Below are positions 24,074-30,821 of a stretch of DNA of 59,870 nt, one piece after another. A model generated the notes under the pieces. The model worked only from the letters and a program-made list of their open reading frames with translations, was not told the origin of the DNA and searched no databases. Source of the DNA: a virus; IMG/VR virus record IMGVR_UViG_3300042691_006466, positions 1 to 59,870 of that record. One strand, written 5' to 3'. Made by a program: the position numbers and the translations under genes. The stretch's first letter is position 1, and each line of letters opens with the position of its first letter.

Positions 24074-24406
24074 TCAAACTTTGTTTTCGTCGATTCGATG
24101 GTCTCCGCACCAGTCGGTCATGTAGACAACTGGATAGCCATTCATTGTTGGAGCGTGGCGACGGCATCGGCCAGCCTGAGCCAGTGGGTTGATGTCCGAG
24201 TTTGAGGTGCCAATGCGTTGCTTAGGCACATACCAAATGCAGGTCATGCACTTCATGCCCTTGTCGCGGTATGCCCAAGGATCGCCAGCAATAGTGCCTG
24301 TGGCTTGTTTCTGTTCGATGACGTCCGCCATCATTTTGGCGTTTCGGCCAAGCATCTCTTCGCGAGCAACCTCGCGGTATTGGCCGGCAATGTTTTGCTC
24401 GCTCAT
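24074..24406 (-). CDS. Cysteine-rich zinc-binding phage protein
   Basis: 110 residues. A C-terminal cluster CMTCIWYV ... CRRHAPT ... WCGDHR supplies five cysteines and two histidines, probably one zinc or metal site. Lies between ERF and SSB and starts at an ATGA overlap with ERF. Similar short metal-knuckle proteins are common in phage recombination operons, but their role is not known to me. Confidence 0.6.
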   Translation of the reverse strand: MSEQNIAGQYREVAREEMLGRNAKMMADVIEQKQATGTIAGDPWAYRDKGMKCMTCIWYVPKQRIGTSNSDINPLAQAGRCRRHAPTMNGYPVVYMTDWCGDHRIDENKV

Positions 24407-25083
24407 GCTGCTTCCTTGTGTTGTGCGCGTGCGGCTTTAAATTCAGACATCAGAACGTCGTATGCAGTGGGGGAGCCACTCTTCACTTCGTCGTAGATGT
24501 TGCGGTTGGTTTTAAAAATGTTCATGACTTGCTCTTCGGTCTTGGCCTGCTCAAGCTGGAGCATGGTTGCGTCGATGATCAGTTGCGACCACTCGCCGTG
24601 ATCGCCGTCTGGCTTTGCCACAACCTTAAGCTGCCACTCGGTGTCTTTACCTTCGATCTTGGTGGGTGCTTTGGCCGCTGGGGCTGCGGGTTTGGCTGGC
24701 GCTGGTTTTGGTTTGGCCGCGCTGTTGCCGTCGTCATCTTCCGGTGCGATTCCACAAGCCGCCATCAGGCTGTATCGGCGTGCATAGGTCAGTGCGCTGC
24801 CGTAGCCCTGTGCGTCATGCTTGGTGGCTGGGACGTGCAGTTTGCCGCTGCTGATTTGCTCACCAGAGGAGTGGATGAAGATGGTCTCCACGATCACGCC
24901 ATCAGTGCATTCGTGCGTGGGCTGCATCAAGTAGATGTCGTTGTTGTTCAGTGCATCAATGACGGCCTCGACGCAGGCAGACAGGTCTGCGTAGCGGCTA
25001 CGGAACGCCGGGTTGGTGCTGGTCTTGAGTGCTGGCCCAAACTCTTTCTGAGCCTTGACCAGTGCTGCTGCGATATCTTTCAT
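24403..25083 (-). CDS. erf: ERF-family single-strand annealing recombinase
   Basis: 226 residues. The N-terminal core (FRSRYADLSACVEAV, then GYGSALTYARRYSLMAACGI) is diagnostic of the ERF superfamily, which anneals complementary ssDNA. A Pro/Ala/Lys linker (about 130-150) joins a smaller C-terminal domain. It would act with the SSB below it and the Fe-S nuclease above it, in place of a RecA-type or Red-beta annealing protein, to circularise or recombine phage DNA. Confidence 0.9.
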   Translation of the reverse strand: MKDIAAALVKAQKEFGPALKTSTNPAFRSRYADLSACVEAVIDALNNNDIYLMQPTHECTDGVIVETIFIHSSGEQISSGKLHVPATKHDAQGYGSALTYARRYSLMAACGIAPEDDDGNSAAKPKPAPAKPAAPAAKAPTKIEGKDTEWQLKVVAKPDGDHGEWSQLIIDATMLQLEQAKTEEQVMNIFKTNRNIYDEVKSGSPTAYDVLMSEFKAARAQHKEAA

Positions 25084-25886: not shown

Positions 25887-26789
25887 TTACTCCTTGTTGG
25901 CTTTTGTGGAAAGATACGTTTGGTGTTGTTGGCAGTACGGCGCTACTTGGCAGAAGCTCTCGCAGCGTGTACGCCCTCCTTCTCTTACTTCGATCAGGAA
26001 CTTTTCGCTCTTCTTGGCTTTTTCTGTTGCGGCAGCCAGAGCCGTGTCTGCTGCTTCGCTTGTGTCGTGAACGCTCTTGGCTCGGACGTTGCCATCCTTC
26101 TTGAGCGCGTAAGTGGTTTGCTTCTCCCACATTTCTTCTGATGTGCAGTTGGGCATCTCGCCGTCAGTCTCCATCTCAAAGAGGGCGTCACCATGCAGTG
26201 AGATGCGGCTGCGCACATAGGCTTCGCGCTCGGCAAACGGCCACAGAGGGATGTCAATCACTACGATGGGTGCCTTGGGGTAGCCTTCCTTGTGTTGGGC
26301 CTCCCTGCGGCTCCAGTCGCGCACGATGGCCACGATCTGCAACTTGGTCACGGGAATGCCCTTGGCCTTCTCAACAAGGTACGCATAGCTGTTGAGCTGG
26401 TTGTGCCAGTCCTTCTTTTCCTGCATTGCAGCCCATGCGCTGGTCGTCTTGTAATCGGACACGGTGATGCCGTCTTCAGAGATTTCTTGCAAGTCGATTG
26501 CACCGCTGATACGCATGCCGTCCAGCTCGACGTGGATGCGCTCTTCAACGACGTGGGTGTCGCCCTTGCCGTGCTCAAGGATGTTGTGGATGGCGGTGCC
26601 AAAGATGGACCAAACCATGTCGGCTGCGTCCTCGGTCAAGTCTTCCCAGTGCTTGCGCTTGAGCTGGACGATGCGCGGGCTGTTGAGCAGCTCGGTTACA
26701 GACATGTTGGCCTTGCCTTTGCTGTACTGCGGGCGTGCGATCACGTTGAGGATCGTCTCGGGCATGCCGAAGTTATTTGTCAGCTTCAT
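25887..26789 (-). CDS. PD-(D/E)XK exonuclease with Fe-S-type cysteine cluster (RecB/Cas4-like)
   Basis: 300 residues from the ATG at 26789. The longer frame would run deep into the upstream gene. Nuclease core: an N-terminal helix region (FGTAIHNILEHG), the catalytic D in SGAIDLQEIS, and the DYKT motif (SDYKTTSAW). One upstream cysteine (PNC) plus RCESFC and YC at the C-terminus match the Fe-S cluster layout of Cas4/AddB-type nucleases. It probably resects DNA ends for the ERF annealing protein. A Cas4 link is at superfamily level only. Confidence 0.82.
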   Translation of the reverse strand: MKLTNNFGMPETILNVIARPQYSKGKANMSVTELLNSPRIVQLKRKHWEDLTEDAADMVWSIFGTAIHNILEHGKGDTHVVEERIHVELDGMRISGAIDLQEISEDGITVSDYKTTSAWAAMQEKKDWHNQLNSYAYLVEKAKGIPVTKLQIVAIVRDWSRREAQHKEGYPKAPIVVIDIPLWPFAEREAYVRSRISLHGDALFEMETDGEMPNCTSEEMWEKQTTYALKKDGNVRAKSVHDTSEAADTALAAATEKAKKSEKFLIEVREGGRTRCESFCQVAPYCQQHQTYLSTKANKE

Positions 26790-27021
26790 CTTCGCGCTCC
26801 ATTGCCATGGTCTGTTTGTGAACCGACATGAACAGGCCCACAGCATCATGCAAGGACATGCCCATGGCGCTTGTAAATGAGGACAGCAAGATGGCTGCCG
26901 CTGTGGCTGCTGTGCCACCCGTGTTGTCCGCCTCCTTCACGATCAGTGGGCCAAACTTGTTGGAAATCCGCACTGCATCAAAAAGGATGTCGATTGATTT
27001 GCTCCGTTCGTTTTCAGTCAT
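26773..27021 (-). CDS. Small helical protein before the exonuclease gene
   Basis: 82 residues. SIDILFDAVRISNKFGPL and TAATAAAILLSSFTSAMGMS are helical; the centre is mildly hydrophobic, though not clearly membrane-spanning. Overlaps its neighbours by 8 and 17 bp, suggesting tight coupling to the exonuclease. Possibly a nuclease partner; function unknown. Confidence 0.6.
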   Translation of the reverse strand: MTENERSKSIDILFDAVRISNKFGPLIVKEADNTGGTAATAAAILLSSFTSAMGMSLHDAVGLFMSVHKQTMAMEREDEADK

Positions 27022-27493
27022 TTTTTCCTCCTAGTGCGTTTTGAAGATCTTTGTTTTTCACGTTCATCATTCCCGCGAGCATTGAAATCTTTGCCTGAGC
27101 ATCTGCGTTCTTTGCCCTGCCGGCATCGGTTAGCATTTCTGCCTTTGTAAAGCTGACGGACATGGCCATCTTCTTCATCTCACGACCGATTGCTTTGATG
27201 CCGGTGTTCACTGCGTACTGGGTCTGCGACTCTGGCTCAATGACTACGTAAGAGCCCTTGTTGTCAGACGCCAAGAGCATGCAGTGGGCAGTCAACAGGA
27301 TGTCTTTGATCTCTGATGTGCATTGCAGGAGCTCGAGGTCATGTCGGCGCACATCCTCAATGCTCTCTGGTGGCCGCACATTGCAAAGCTCAGAGATGCG
27401 CTTTCTGCTGATGGTGCTGCCATAGGTTAGGCCCTCATCAATCAGAATCTTGACGGCCTGTTTCCAAGCCGGGAACAGTGTCATTTCTTGCAT
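27014..27493 (-). CDS. Recombination-operon protein of unknown function
   Basis: 159 residues from the ATG at 27493, which overlaps the preceding stop as TGATG. N-terminal LFPAWKQAVKILIDEGLTYG followed by RKRISELCNVR resembles phage proteins with a winged-helix-like start. A middle segment (GSYVVIEPESQTQYAV) is beta-like, and the C-terminal 50 residues form a helix (AQAKISMLAGMMNVKNKDL). Unknown role, coupled to the RAMP-like gene. Confidence 0.62.
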   Translation of the reverse strand: MQEMTLFPAWKQAVKILIDEGLTYGSTISRKRISELCNVRPPESIEDVRRHDLELLQCTSEIKDILLTAHCMLLASDNKGSYVVIEPESQTQYAVNTGIKAIGREMKKMAMSVSFTKAEMLTDAGRAKNADAQAKISMLAGMMNVKNKDLQNALGGKND

Positions 27494-28062
27494 CAAATGA
27501 ACTCCACATTGAAACGGCCAAAGCGTGGGCGGTAGTCGCCCAAACCAATCAGGGCTCCAGCATCTTGCACAGCCTTCTTTACTTCGTTGAGGTTGACCAC
27601 TTCTTCGTTGACAACGATGGTTGCATTCAGAGACCACTTGCGAAGGATGGGGCGGTAGCGCATGATCTTTGCCATGCCAACCTTGACACCACGGCAGTCA
27701 ATGTGCTCTGGGTCTTCCCATAGTTGCTCGGGAGTTTTCTTGTCGTACCCCGTAAACGTAAGCTCATCTTCCAATACCTGCACGCCCTGCTTGAACTTAA
27801 CTCCGAGCTTTTGCAACTTGGCTGCGGCGATCAGGCACGCATCGAGGTTCTGTGCTGGCAAGAAGAAGCCAACGTCCTTGCGCCAGTAGCAGCCGCCGAT
27901 GAACTCACTGCGCGCGATGGCAGTGTGGTCGTCGTCTGTTTTCTTGCGCTTGCTGGTCAGCTCTTTGTGGGCCTTTGCAAGTGGGTCAAGCGGGTTAGCA
28001 AAGCGGTCCGAGTGCATGAGAAAAGGAGCCTTGCCTGTTAATTGAACTGCGATTGTTTTCAT
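27493..28062 (-). CDS. RAMP-like (Cas7/Cas5-type fold candidate) protein, first gene of recombination operon
   Basis: 189 residues from the ATG at 28062, which has GGAAAC upstream. The first strand (TIAVQLTGKAPFLMHSD), the segment VGFFLPAQNLDACLIAAAK, and the glycine-rich ending GALIGLGDYRPRFGRF resemble the RRM-like folds of RAMP proteins used by CRISPR effectors to hold RNA. No catalytic histidine pair as in Cas6 is evident. It is the first gene after a roughly 700-nt leader with six structured hairpin repeats. RNA binding is inference. Confidence 0.55.
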   Translation of the reverse strand: MKTIAVQLTGKAPFLMHSDRFANPLDPLAKAHKELTSKRKKTDDDHTAIARSEFIGGCYWRKDVGFFLPAQNLDACLIAAAKLQKLGVKFKQGVQVLEDELTFTGYDKKTPEQLWEDPEHIDCRGVKVGMAKIMRYRPILRKWSLNATIVVNEEVVNLNEVKKAVQDAGALIGLGDYRPRFGRFNVEFI

Positions 28063-28764
28063 GATGTTTCCTTTGGTTAATTGATGCACGCTTTGCATCG
28101 AAATGACACCTCATTGAAGTGTCATGACGCTACATTAGCCCCTGCCAATCCACGCCCCTCCTAGCCATTCCCGGCGTGTCCAAGCCACTTGGTGTTGCCA
28201 CCGAGATGAACCCTCAATGAAGACTCATAACGCTGTTAACAGCCCTTGTTTTACCCAGAATTTCCATGCCCGACCCCGCCCCGCCGCACCGTGGCAGGCC
28301 AGTCCAAATGGTGTTGCCACCGGGTAGCCACCTTTGCAAGTGACTAACCACTGTTAACAGCCCATGCCCCAGCCTTCCACACCCCTCCTAGCCGTGCCGC
28401 TGCCAGCCCTTCCATTTTGGTGTTGCCACCGAAATCACCTCTCATGGAAAAGTGATCCCGCTGTTAACAGCCCTCGCCGTGCCTTTGCCGACCGAGCCTG
28501 ACCGCACTGCTCCGAGCCACAACCACGCCACTTTGGTGTTGCCACCGAAAAGCACTCTGTAAAAAATGCTTCCCGCTGTTAACAGCCCATACCAGTCCCC
28601 GCCTCTCCTCGCCGTGCCGAGCCTTTCCCGACCGTGCCGTCCGATTGGTGTTGCCACCGAAATGACCTTTCATTGAAAAGCCATGACGCTGTAAACAGCC
28701 CATGCCGTTGACTACCAAGCCCGACCTAGCCTAATCCGGCCCCGCAGATACATCAGGTAGGTTG
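28063..28764 (-). ncRNA. Leftward structured leader RNA
   Basis: From the predicted start (about 28764) to the RAMP-like ATG, about 700 nt without a credible gene. In the leftward transcript each of six units folds as a GCUG...CAGC hairpin, a 9-10-bp stem (8 in one unit) with a short loop, and, in five of them, a GGUG-GCAA-CACC hairpin with a GNRA tetraloop. G:U pairs in the stems would be A:C mismatches in a rightward RNA, which fixes the strand. A cis-regulatory leader or a processed RNA is possible; short frames read across it look spurious. Confidence 0.6.
28083..28701 (-). repeat. Six-unit tandem array of structured ~55-bp repeats
   Basis: Units at about 28083-28141 (diverged), 28191-28245, 28310-28363, 28419-28473, 28535-28588 and 28647-28701, period 108-119 bp. 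The five good copies share GGTGTTGCCACC at one edge and GCTGTTAACAGCCC (or near) at the other. The middle differs in sequence but stays self-complementary. In the diverged unit, both edges change in step (GATGCA/TGCATC and GCTA/TAGC), so pairing is preserved. Spacers are C-rich on the plus strand and partly alike. Confidence 0.85.
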
Positions 28765-28786
28765 GACTTGATTGTACCTGATGTAT
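28748..28786. promoter_or_regulatory. 12-bp inverted repeat operator candidate
   Basis: ATACATCAGGTA (28748-28759) and its perfect complement TACCTGATGTAT (28775-28786) are separated by 15 bp. The right arm lies over the -10/spacer of the leftward promoter and the left arm just past the start site, a usual geometry for repression by a dimer or tetramer. The RHH-like protein at 22941-23261 is a possible ligand. Confidence 0.65.
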
Positions 28787-28798
28787 TAGGTTCGTCAA
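28771..28798 (-). promoter_or_regulatory. Leftward sigma70-type promoter for the leader and recombination operon
   Basis: On the minus strand TTGACG (28798-28793), 16-bp spacer, TACAAT (28776-28771). Start expected near 28764. It would transcribe the repeat array and the operon from the RAMP-like gene to the HNH gene. Confidence 0.65.
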
Positions 28799-29201: not shown

Positions 29202-29215
29202 GGGCCATCACGCAT

Positions 29216-29343
29216 GGGGACTAAGAGGCGAGGGGGTGTAGCCGCACTTCTGGAGACTCGCTGAAAGTCGCAAGGCAAACGGACAGGCGCTATGGTCAGC
29301 CAAGAGGAGTCCGGTAAGGGTTCAAATCCCGCCTTAGTCCCCA
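29216..29343 (+). ncRNA. tRNA-like structured element
   Basis: About 128 nt closed by a perfect 10-bp stem (GGGGACTAAG / CTTAGTCCCC) followed by A. A TTCAAAT loop closed by GGG/CCC sits at the T-arm position and fits the tRNA T-loop consensus. Inside are GCGAG/CTCGC and CGGAC/GTCCG stems. The closing stem is 3 bp longer than a tRNA acceptor, and I cannot fit an anticodon arm with U33, so it is not a normal tRNA. It could be a tRNA mimic or the 5' domain of a larger RNA. Confidence 0.5.
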
Positions 29344-29347
29344 GCCG

Positions 29348-29415
29348 TGATGGTTAAGCGACACACCGCCGATAAGGCAACACACCGCAGGATTGGGGGA
29401 GCCCGGTCGCCATCA
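29348..29415 (+). other. Structured segment between tRNA-like element and sRNA promoter
   Basis: TGATG (29349-29353) pairs with CATCA (29411-29415) and GCGAC with GTCGC inside it; a small GCC-GATAA-GGC hairpin lies within. No ORF with a ribosome site is seen. It may belong to the same large RNA as its neighbours. Confidence 0.4.
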
Positions 29416-29420
29416 GCCTC

Positions 29421-29450
29421 TTGCACACTGTTCCCATTTGTTGATATACT
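29421..29450 (+). promoter_or_regulatory. Sigma70-type promoter inside the RNA region
   Basis: TTGCAC (29421-29426), 18-bp spacer, TATACT (29445-29450). Predicted start near 29457. No gene follows within 550 bp, so the product would be a non-coding RNA. Confidence 0.55.
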
Positions 29451-29456
29451 GCGTCC

Positions 29457-29608
29457 ATCAGCGGCTTGGTAACCCGTTGTAGTCCTGTGTAACGCGCCCC
29501 GAACCCTTATTGAAGGAGCGGGCTTCGTCAAAGCTACAGATGTCTGGCACAGCAGCTCTGTATGCGGCAACCAAGCCTAAAGCTCGTATCTTTCAATAAG
29601 GGTTTTTT
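29457..29608 (+). ncRNA. Rod-like RNA ending in a stem and U-run
   Basis: A 13-bp perfect stem (29502-29514 with 29592-29604) encloses nested GAGC/GCTC, GGCTT/AAGCC and TACAGA/TCTGTA pairs, giving a rod of about 100 nt. It ends in TTTTTT, so it can act as a terminator. Upstream GGCTTGGT (29463-29470) can instead pair with ACCAAGCC (29570-29577), which competes with the inner rod: either a pseudoknot or a two-state switch. Confidence 0.55.
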
Positions 29609-29610
29609 GC

Positions 29611-30010
29611 TTTCTGCCTTACCTTGGTCTGAGGGTTTATCGGGAGCCCTGTACTGTTTGTCTCAGACCGAGAGCCACAAAAAGATCGACGTGGCAAGCG
29701 CGGGTGGGGATAGCGCTGATTGTTGAGTAAACCGCCAGAACGGAACCGGGTCGAGAGATTAGGGTGCTCCGGGGCAACGGCAACAATCAGGTCAAGCTTG
29801 GTCAGTGCGCTAAGAAGGGACCTCACAATGGGTCTAAATGTCTGACAGTTGCGGCGGAACATTGAGAGATGACCGCAACCAAAAAGCGACGGAGCGACCG
29901 AAGGGTGATTCCAGCATTTTGATCTTCAGCCAACCTCGCGGTCTGCGGGCTAGGGGTGGGCTGTGTCCGATTGCTCCGTCACTCGGTCCGGGTGATAACC
30001 AGTGTGGGGG
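29611..30010 (+). ncRNA. Multi-stem structured RNA region
   Basis: About 400 nt with no credible gene but many perfect or near-perfect stems: 29623-29633/29662-29672 (11 bp, one G:U valid only on this strand); 29716-29725/29781-29790 (10 bp) inside 29711-29716/29807-29812; 29848-29854/29873-29879 (7 bp); 29888-29895/29973-29980 (8 bp). With the upstream elements it spans about 800 nt. Size, phage setting and tRNA-like neighbour recall the GOLLD and ROOL classes; identity is unproven. Confidence 0.5.
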
Positions 30011-30015
30011 CTGCG

Positions 30016-30630
30016 ATGTTAGACAGAAGTGAAGCGAAGAGAGTGAAGAGTAGTGCGCTGCCTTGGTTCATAACCTCCCGGCTTCGATCTGTGAATCGAG
30101 TGGGGCTGAGTGAAGTGGAGCAAGCCTGCCTAGCGCTAGAGGCTGACGGTATGCCCTGCCCCATGAGCGTGGAGCCTGAGCAATGGGTTCGGGACAACTT
30201 CTCCTACATCTGCTTCAAGTACCACGAGAGGTATCCGCGTCCTGCCGCGAAAACGGCCAAGTTGTCAAAGAAGCAACGTAAGAGCAAACGCCTTGCTGCA
30301 TCAGGCTACGCAAAGACCGCGCACAAACCCTCCCCAAAAAAGCCAATCACTCAAAAGCCTGTTTTGGTGGCCGGCGTAGATGTTGCGTCAGACGCCTTCC
30401 TGTCCACGTTTCAGTGGCGCAGGGTACGCATGGAGGCGCTGAAGAAGTATGGCCCGAGGTGTCAGTGCTGCGGAGCCACTCCCGCTGGCGGGGCGGTGAT
30501 GAACGTAGACCATATCAAGCCACGCAAGAAGTGGCCATCTCTGGCGCTTGACGTGAACAACCTCCAGATTCTTTGCCATGACTGCAACCACGGCAAGGGC
30601 AACTGGGATGACACTGACTGGCGGGCGTAA
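30016..30630 (+). CDS. HNH endonuclease
   Basis: 204 residues from the ATG at 30016, just beyond the structured RNA. The first 100 residues are an unassigned helical region with a Lys-rich linker (KLSKKQRKSKRL). The C-terminal nuclease core reads YGPRCQCCGATP, NVDHIKPRKKWP, NNLQILCHDCNHGKGN: two zinc-binding CxxC knuckles around the HNH motif. May be a homing nuclease beside the RNA, or a packaging-related HNH enzyme. No RuvC segments, so it is not IscB-like. Confidence 0.82.
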   Translation: MLDRSEAKRVKSSALPWFITSRLRSVNRVGLSEVEQACLALEADGMPCPMSVEPEQWVRDNFSYICFKYHERYPRPAAKTAKLSKKQRKSKRLAASGYAKTAHKPSPKKPITQKPVLVAGVDVASDAFLSTFQWRRVRMEALKKYGPRCQCCGATPAGGAVMNVDHIKPRKKWPSLALDVNNLQILCHDCNHGKGNWDDTDWRA

Positions 30631-30651
30631 AAAAACCCGCACTGGGCGGGC
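30629..30651 (-). terminator. Terminator for the leftward small-gene operon
   Basis: Read leftward: CCCGC, 5-nt loop, GCGGG, then seven U residues. It ends the leftward genes of 30.66-33.45 kb just before they would run into the HNH gene. Confidence 0.8.
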
Positions 30652-30656
30652 TTCGG

Positions 30657-30821
30657 TTACTCTGGATCGTGCCAGATGTCTGGGGTGGCCCAAGCGAATA
30701 GAGCCATCCACACAGTCGGGCAGTCACCGACCGACCTAAACACAATCTTGGCCAGTGCGAGCTGGTTGTCGCGCTCTTGGAGCCACCACTCATAAGCCGT
30801 GAAGGGCGGGTGCTTGCGCAT
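30657..30821 (-). CDS. 54-residue phage protein of unknown function
   Basis: Reads MRKHPPFTAYEWWLQERDNQ, then a helical part ending WATPDIWHDPE. It has no motif; the many Trp are notable. Its ATG overlaps the stop of the preceding gene (TGATG), showing that it is the last cistron of the leftward operon, ahead of a strong terminator. Confidence 0.6.
   Translation of the reverse strand: MRKHPPFTAYEWWLQERDNQLALAKIVFRSVGDCPTVWMALFAWATPDIWHDPE

Follow-up and report, generated by a model that had tools for sequence, protein, structure and literature searches.

A probable VIPR array of six guides with three-hairpin tails, and candidate integrase targets, in a virus genome record

In the IMG/VR virus record IMGVR_UViG_3300042691_006466 (positions 1 to 59,870; this 59,870-nucleotide stretch is referred to here as the window), a repeated set of hairpins lies upstream of a leftward recombination operon, raising the question of what the hairpins belong to and what they do. 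The original prediction described six three-hairpin units on a leftward RNA of no named family and, by their location, implied a leader function. The location is confirmed by exonuclease and Erf-like genes downstream, and the six units are real; however, the tails correspond to the 3' tails of the vrRNAs of VIPR systems (PMC13142463, April 2026), and the hairpins cap guide RNAs, with the information carried by the spacers.

A VIPR locus upstream of the recombination genes

VIPR systems combine Vipr, an ancestral RAMP protein, with vrRNAs in which 9-16 YNNGG repeats precede a structured tail (PMC13142463). Within the repeats GGY is conserved and NN is hypervariable, and the systems include a vap accessory gene (PMC13142463). 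Double-stranded DNA targets are recognized through the NN dinucleotides, with one base skipped each time and a tendency for that base to be at a codon wobble position; the reported targets are satellites and lysogeny regulators (PMC13142463). The features of the locus in the window are as follows, in the leftward direction.

28771-28798, minus strand: promoter-like sequence TTGACG-16-TACAAT directed into the array (a consensus match only, at 10 of 12 letters)
28748-28786, no strand assigned: perfect 12-bp dyad ATACATCAGGTA/TACCTGATGTAT surrounding the promoter-like site, a probable operator
28700-28745, minus strand: guide G1 of vrRNA1, about 9 YNNGG repeats, with NN letters GG CG TA TA CG TT AG AC AT
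28647-28699, minus strand: tail 1, three hairpins (based, as for tails 2 to 5, on stem stability, pairing and covariation)
28587-28646, minus strand: guide G2 of vrRNA2, 12 repeats, matching the catalytic motif of large serine recombinases
28535-28586, minus strand: tail 2, three hairpins
28472-28534, minus strand: guide G3 of vrRNA3, 12 repeats, matching the S-T-F-R-D-W-A-A-E motif of tyrosine integrases
28419-28471, minus strand: tail 3, three hairpins
28362-28418, minus strand: guide G4 of vrRNA4, 11 repeats, matching I-P-L-T-P-Y-V-A-Q-L of a second tyrosine integrase type
28310-28361, minus strand: tail 4, three hairpins
28244-28309, minus strand: guide G5 of vrRNA5, 13 repeats, with NN letters conserved in contigs L010 and L028
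28191-28243, minus strand: tail 5, three hairpins
28140-28190, minus strand: guide G6 of vrRNA6, about 10 repeats, recognized by its GG rhythm
28083-28139, minus strand: tail 6, diverged, with hairpins GCTAATGTAGC, ATGACAC..GTGTCAT and GATGCA..TGCATC
27493-28062, minus strand: vipr, encoding a RAMP-family protein (phrog_4652), directly downstream of the array
27014-27493, minus strand: vap1 homologue (phrog_5926), the next gene after vipr
25887-26918, minus strand: PD-(D/E)XK exonuclease gene, downstream of the array
24403-25083, minus strand: Erf-like single-strand annealing protein gene, downstream of the array

Five of the six units are clean (28191-28243, 28310-28361, 28419-28471, 28535-28586 and 28647-28699) and one is diverged (28083-28139), with a period of 109-119 bp. 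The edges of the clean units (28191-28699) are GGTGTTGCCACC and (G/A)CTGTWAACAGC; as originally described, the edge hairpins of the diverged unit differ yet are self-complementary, and forms related to it occur beside vipr in three other contigs (L037, L043 and L047). The earlier unit definition had the hairpins right but was cut wrongly, as the three-hairpin unit is only the 3' tail of a vrRNA. The C-rich spacers that it passed over are the guides, the informative part of the array, and a further guide extends the array on its right side to about 28745.

The predicted Vipr protein aligned by sequence to PDB entry 36pp_D, "SUSP1 Vipr protein", over residues 13-200 (E=9.6e-46), and the product of the vap1 homologue aligned to the SUSP1 vap product (E=2e-5) and to LESphi2 gp8 (E=3e-24). 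Among 30 IMG/VR viral contigs collected by the hairpin motif alone, 28 encode a Vipr relative, the exceptions within the DNA stretches examined being L006 and L023; E values ranged from <1e-100 to ~1e-13, with one at 1.5e-3, and for contig L018 the vipr gene is located in a separate stretch (L042). The locus in the window thus has a Vipr protein, YNNGG repeats with hypervariable NN, a structured 3' tail and a vap gene, and in silico its guides G2, G3 and G4 match integrase or recombinase genes with the one-nucleotide skip on the wobble base. Taken together, the array, vipr and vap1 almost certainly constitute a VIPR system, and from the similarity of Vipr and the vap product to SUSP1 we infer that it belongs to type II, the SUSP1 clade.

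Class 1 CRISPR-Cas arrays likewise pair a RAMP-family protein with an array of guide RNAs, in each of which a variable guide is joined to a structured handle. They differ from this locus, which has a non-contiguous GGY/NN code, one small effector and no adaptation genes among the genes checked near the array. A Pfam scan of ten nearby genes identified no Cas proteins; phrog_1706 ("CRISPR/Cas-associated") is a weaker match of the exonuclease gene and was not taken as evidence for cas. Near-identical repeats with contiguous spacers, as in a CRISPR array, were not found, as the middle stems differ and the spacers are YNNGG tracts.

The guides and their candidate targets

On the minus strand, the spacers read as YNNGG, repeated 9-13 times per guide. 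GG dinucleotides spaced by 5 nt form 45 pairs on this strand, compared with 13.1 +/- 3.7 in shuffles, and 0 pairs on the plus strand. Across 39 distinct guides placed in the YNNGG register, Y occurs at 73%, the two N positions are near uniform, and the two G positions stand at 92% and 83%. The rhythm clearly exceeded shuffles in the 700 nt upstream of vipr in 26 of 28 relatives (all except L086 and L087).

Comparison with contig L010 shows which letters are under selection. G5 differs between the two at 0/26 NN, 4/13 Y and 4/26 GG positions, and G2 differs at 2/20 NN, 6/10 Y and 2/20 GG positions; combined, NN changed at 2/46 positions versus 10/23 for Y (Fisher p=1.4e-4). Selection on G2 and G5 thus acts on NN, whereas their GGY scaffold drifts. 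The G2 core is retained in phages whose Vipr is only 76-80% identical, the G1 core of NN letters TA TA CG TT AG AC AT is retained in L015 and L027, and guides of the G3 type were seen in about ten further contigs. G3 departs from the NN-conserved pattern, with changes at NN and at Y, and G3-type guides behave as if they were tracking target variants. In six contigs (L019, L022, L026, L027, L053 and L055), one NN of the G3-type guide varies between phages; its variants would fit different amino acids at the T/S position of the integrase motif, with, for example, GT fitting Thr and GA fitting Ser. The repeat adjoining the tail is often CAAGG in relatives and is possibly constant, though G4 sites often match that repeat.

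We searched for targets in genomes of a presumed rather than proven host family, chosen because a Rhodoferax MAG encodes a 78% identical Vipr. Guides were decoded by the published one-nucleotide-skip rule, with the backward pattern as a control; matches inside one gene family are not independent of each other. The G2 core ACNCGNAANTCNACNGANGANGGNCT, a pattern picked after seeing which NNs the relatives retain, gave 15 exact matches, spread over 14 of 401 genomes, against an estimated ~0.05 expected and 0 for the control. All 15 read T-R-K-S-T-[DE]-[DE]-G-L; at each of the eight loci inspected, the gene is a large serine recombinase and the motif sits at its catalytic serine (Y-T-R-K-S-T). Orthologous G2 guides of relatives have TA, for the Tyr codon of Y-T-R-K-S-T, one repeat further out, where the guide in the window has AC.

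The G3 core TCNGCNGCNCANTCNCGNAANNNNGA, in which one NN is left open, was matched exactly in 16 of 401 genomes, once in each (control, 0); the open NN is the one that varies among relatives and at which the window's own NN mismatches. Fifteen of these matches translate to S-[TS]-F-R-D-W-A-A on the opposite strand, and the tyrosine-integrase motif was present in seven of the eight loci checked. The remaining match (L121) could not be read as an integrase and was set aside; it fits the ~0.8 chance matches estimated for 16 fixed bases. The G4 pattern AGNTGNGCNACNTANGGNGTNAGNGG, selected without reference to relatives, matched in 16 of 301 genomes, 7 times without and 9 times with one mismatch (control, no exact match and 4 in all); the eight loci checked all encode tyrosine integrases of the other type, matched at [IVL]-P-L-T-P-Y-[VLM]-A-[QH]-L.

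In all three of G2, G3 and G4, the skip falls on the wobble base of the codon, so that a single guide can reach much of a protein family. Pfam and NCBIfam searches confirmed Resolvase plus Recombinase domains and Phage_integrase domains in one example per target type. Near the matched genes lie a type I restriction specificity-like gene, a SIR2-like gene beside a HerA-like gene, and IrrE and Bro-N genes, a setting like that of integrative islands. One G4-matched integrase (L132:5358-10252, minus strand) adjoins the SIR2-like and HerA-like genes, a combination similar to a phage-defence pair. The phage record itself has neither a PF00589 integrase nor a PF00239 resolvase, and its guides have no good self-match within it. 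A scan of the fetched loci with skips of 0-3 found the guides themselves at skip 3, and its result at skip 1 is biased by the loci taken from the target search.

Three guides spell conserved codons of three integrase or recombinase types with the wobble base skipped, which makes integrase silencing the most likely function; the array would probably act, in this phage group, as a multi-guide silencer of integrases of prophages, satellites and islands. It is possible, though rather unlikely, that the array is a true VIPR array whose integrase matches are coincidental or secondary, its real targets lying, as for SUSP1, in competitor phages or satellites that were not sampled. The satellites and lysogeny regulators targeted in PMC13142463 are in line with that explanation, as are the guides without a match in the host-family genomes (G1 and G6, as well as G5 with up to 3 mismatches) and the lack of a clear target in IMG/VR, where exact scans with eight NN, run for each of the six guides, returned nothing beyond chance-like matches, and these did not extend convincingly. 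In hindsight, the patterns of those scans included the tail-adjacent repeat and, for G3, the variable NN. The best G6 match in IMG/VR (19/20 letters, at the start of an HNH-endonuclease ORF in a contig with podophage-like genes) was set aside as compatible with chance. Coincidence is harder to reconcile with three guides that match three integrase types in frame, with exact matches far above the controls, and with the retention of G2- and G3-type guides in relatives.

A leader RNA acting in cis on the recombination operon (by antitermination or attenuation) or an RNA sponge would account for a structured RNA directly upstream of the leftward exonuclease and Erf operon, but it is very improbable given that the spacers bear a YNNGG code with hypervariable NN, the first gene downstream is vipr, the guides have gapped genomic matches, and no intrinsic-terminator-like site was detected in the region.

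Structure and strand of the tails

We collected 33 distinct tails from related viral contigs; pairing and covariation were analysed on 27 distinct tails, with the loop removed for pair counts. Covariation of the middle stem, predicted from the six units, extends to these homologues: eight of the 10 pairs in the middle helix vary on both sides. The covariation score was 0.425, a value reached by none of 500 shuffles (0.152 +/- 0.014), and it fell to 0.07-0.13 once the partner was slid by 1-3 columns. Of 243 middle-stem cells, 240 are paired, with 48 G-U and a single A-C. In all 33 tails the middle stem is more stable as leftward RNA (mean -11.6 kcal/mol, versus -4.9 kcal/mol rightward), and G-U pairs number 88 leftward and 5 rightward. 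The tetraloop variants of the edge hairpin are GCAA, GUAA and GAAA only, all of them GNRA as predicted. The original argument that selection acts on the leftward RNA was correct because of the asymmetry between G-U and A-C (48 versus 1), the stem stability in 33 of 33 tails, the covariation and the GNRA-only loops. The three hairpins account for the conserved pairs of the tail. An Rfam search returned nothing above the gathering score, and a tRNA search returned no match above threshold.

A DNA element (a replication origin, iterons or a palindromic operator array) would fit the perfect palindrome GCTGTTAACAGC in three units and the intergenic position between divergent genes, but is scarcely credible given the strand-specific G-U pairing (48 versus 1), loop variants that are GNRA only, and middle stems that vary freely yet remain paired.

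Two further structured regions lie near the array. A 149-nt imperfect hairpin at 29205-29353 on the plus strand has a z-score of -4.7 and carries a T-loop-like GGGTTCAAATCCC close to the 3' end; ARAGORN and Rfam made no call for it. The region 29430-30700 looks mostly non-coding and contains hairpins including CTTATTGAAGGAGCGGGC...CAATAAGGGTTTTTT; it had no match in annotated phages.

Proposed mechanism and relation to known VIPR systems

Under the proposed mechanism, a single leftward transcript would carry the six vrRNAs followed by vipr and vap1, with each vrRNA being a guide of 9-13 YNNGG repeats and then a three-hairpin tail. By analogy with PMC13142463, the six vrRNAs would be matured from this transcript, Vipr presumably assembles on GGY, each NN dinucleotide would pair with double-stranded DNA with one target base skipped per repeat, the bound complex would block transcription of the target, and Vap1 would enhance silencing. 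The benefit to the phage, as we propose here, would be the silencing of integrases of rival or resident integrative elements, that is, prophages, satellites and islands.

The VIPR system of Escherichia phage SUSP1 (PMC13142463; KT454805) is likewise phage-encoded, with adjacent Vipr and vap genes and YNNGG guides of similar length, each followed by a structured tail. However, of the SUSP1 vrRNAs one precedes the genes and three follow them, whereas all six are upstream here; the SUSP1 tail is a pseudoknot, whereas these have three hairpins; and guides of its clade are mostly directed against a satellite phage, whereas three guides here match integrases. The published tail is called invariable (PMC13142463), whereas here the middle stem differs between units and stays paired. 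By eye, a hairpin also marks the guide boundaries in SUSP1 (L063, 27500-29510); its GTCTT...GAGGGT core resembles the middle hairpin here, and its stems differ between units.

Pseudomonas phages vB_Pae_LESphi2 and Medea1 carry VIPR-like loci (Vipr 46% and 58% identical, respectively) with GG-rich guides between GCTG...CAGC, middle, and GGTG...CACC-like hairpins; LESphi2 has three guides and Medea1 one (by eye), and their hairpin sequences and genome context are unlike those here. Gordonia phage MakoManhole (L065, 1641-1773 and 2885-3236) has a VIPR-like locus with GG-rich guides separated by GGTGGGGTTCGACTCCCCACC, which resembles a tRNA T-arm plus acceptor half and is perhaps a processing signal for host tRNA enzymes.

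VIPR is a kind of system already known; the member described here has six upstream vrRNAs and three-hairpin tails with a middle stem that differs between units. Our literature search found no VIPR paper other than PMC13142463, the main text of which mentions neither integrase nor recombinase; its supplement may list integrase targets or similar tails. The analysis places a covarying RNA array within the newly described VIPR systems and, in that NNs are kept while GGY drifts, supports the gapped VIPR code by comparative genomics that is independent of the preprint's assays. It also suggests a concrete function, namely the silencing of integrases at highly conserved codons, and decoded guides may reveal the mobile elements that are a phage's competitors.
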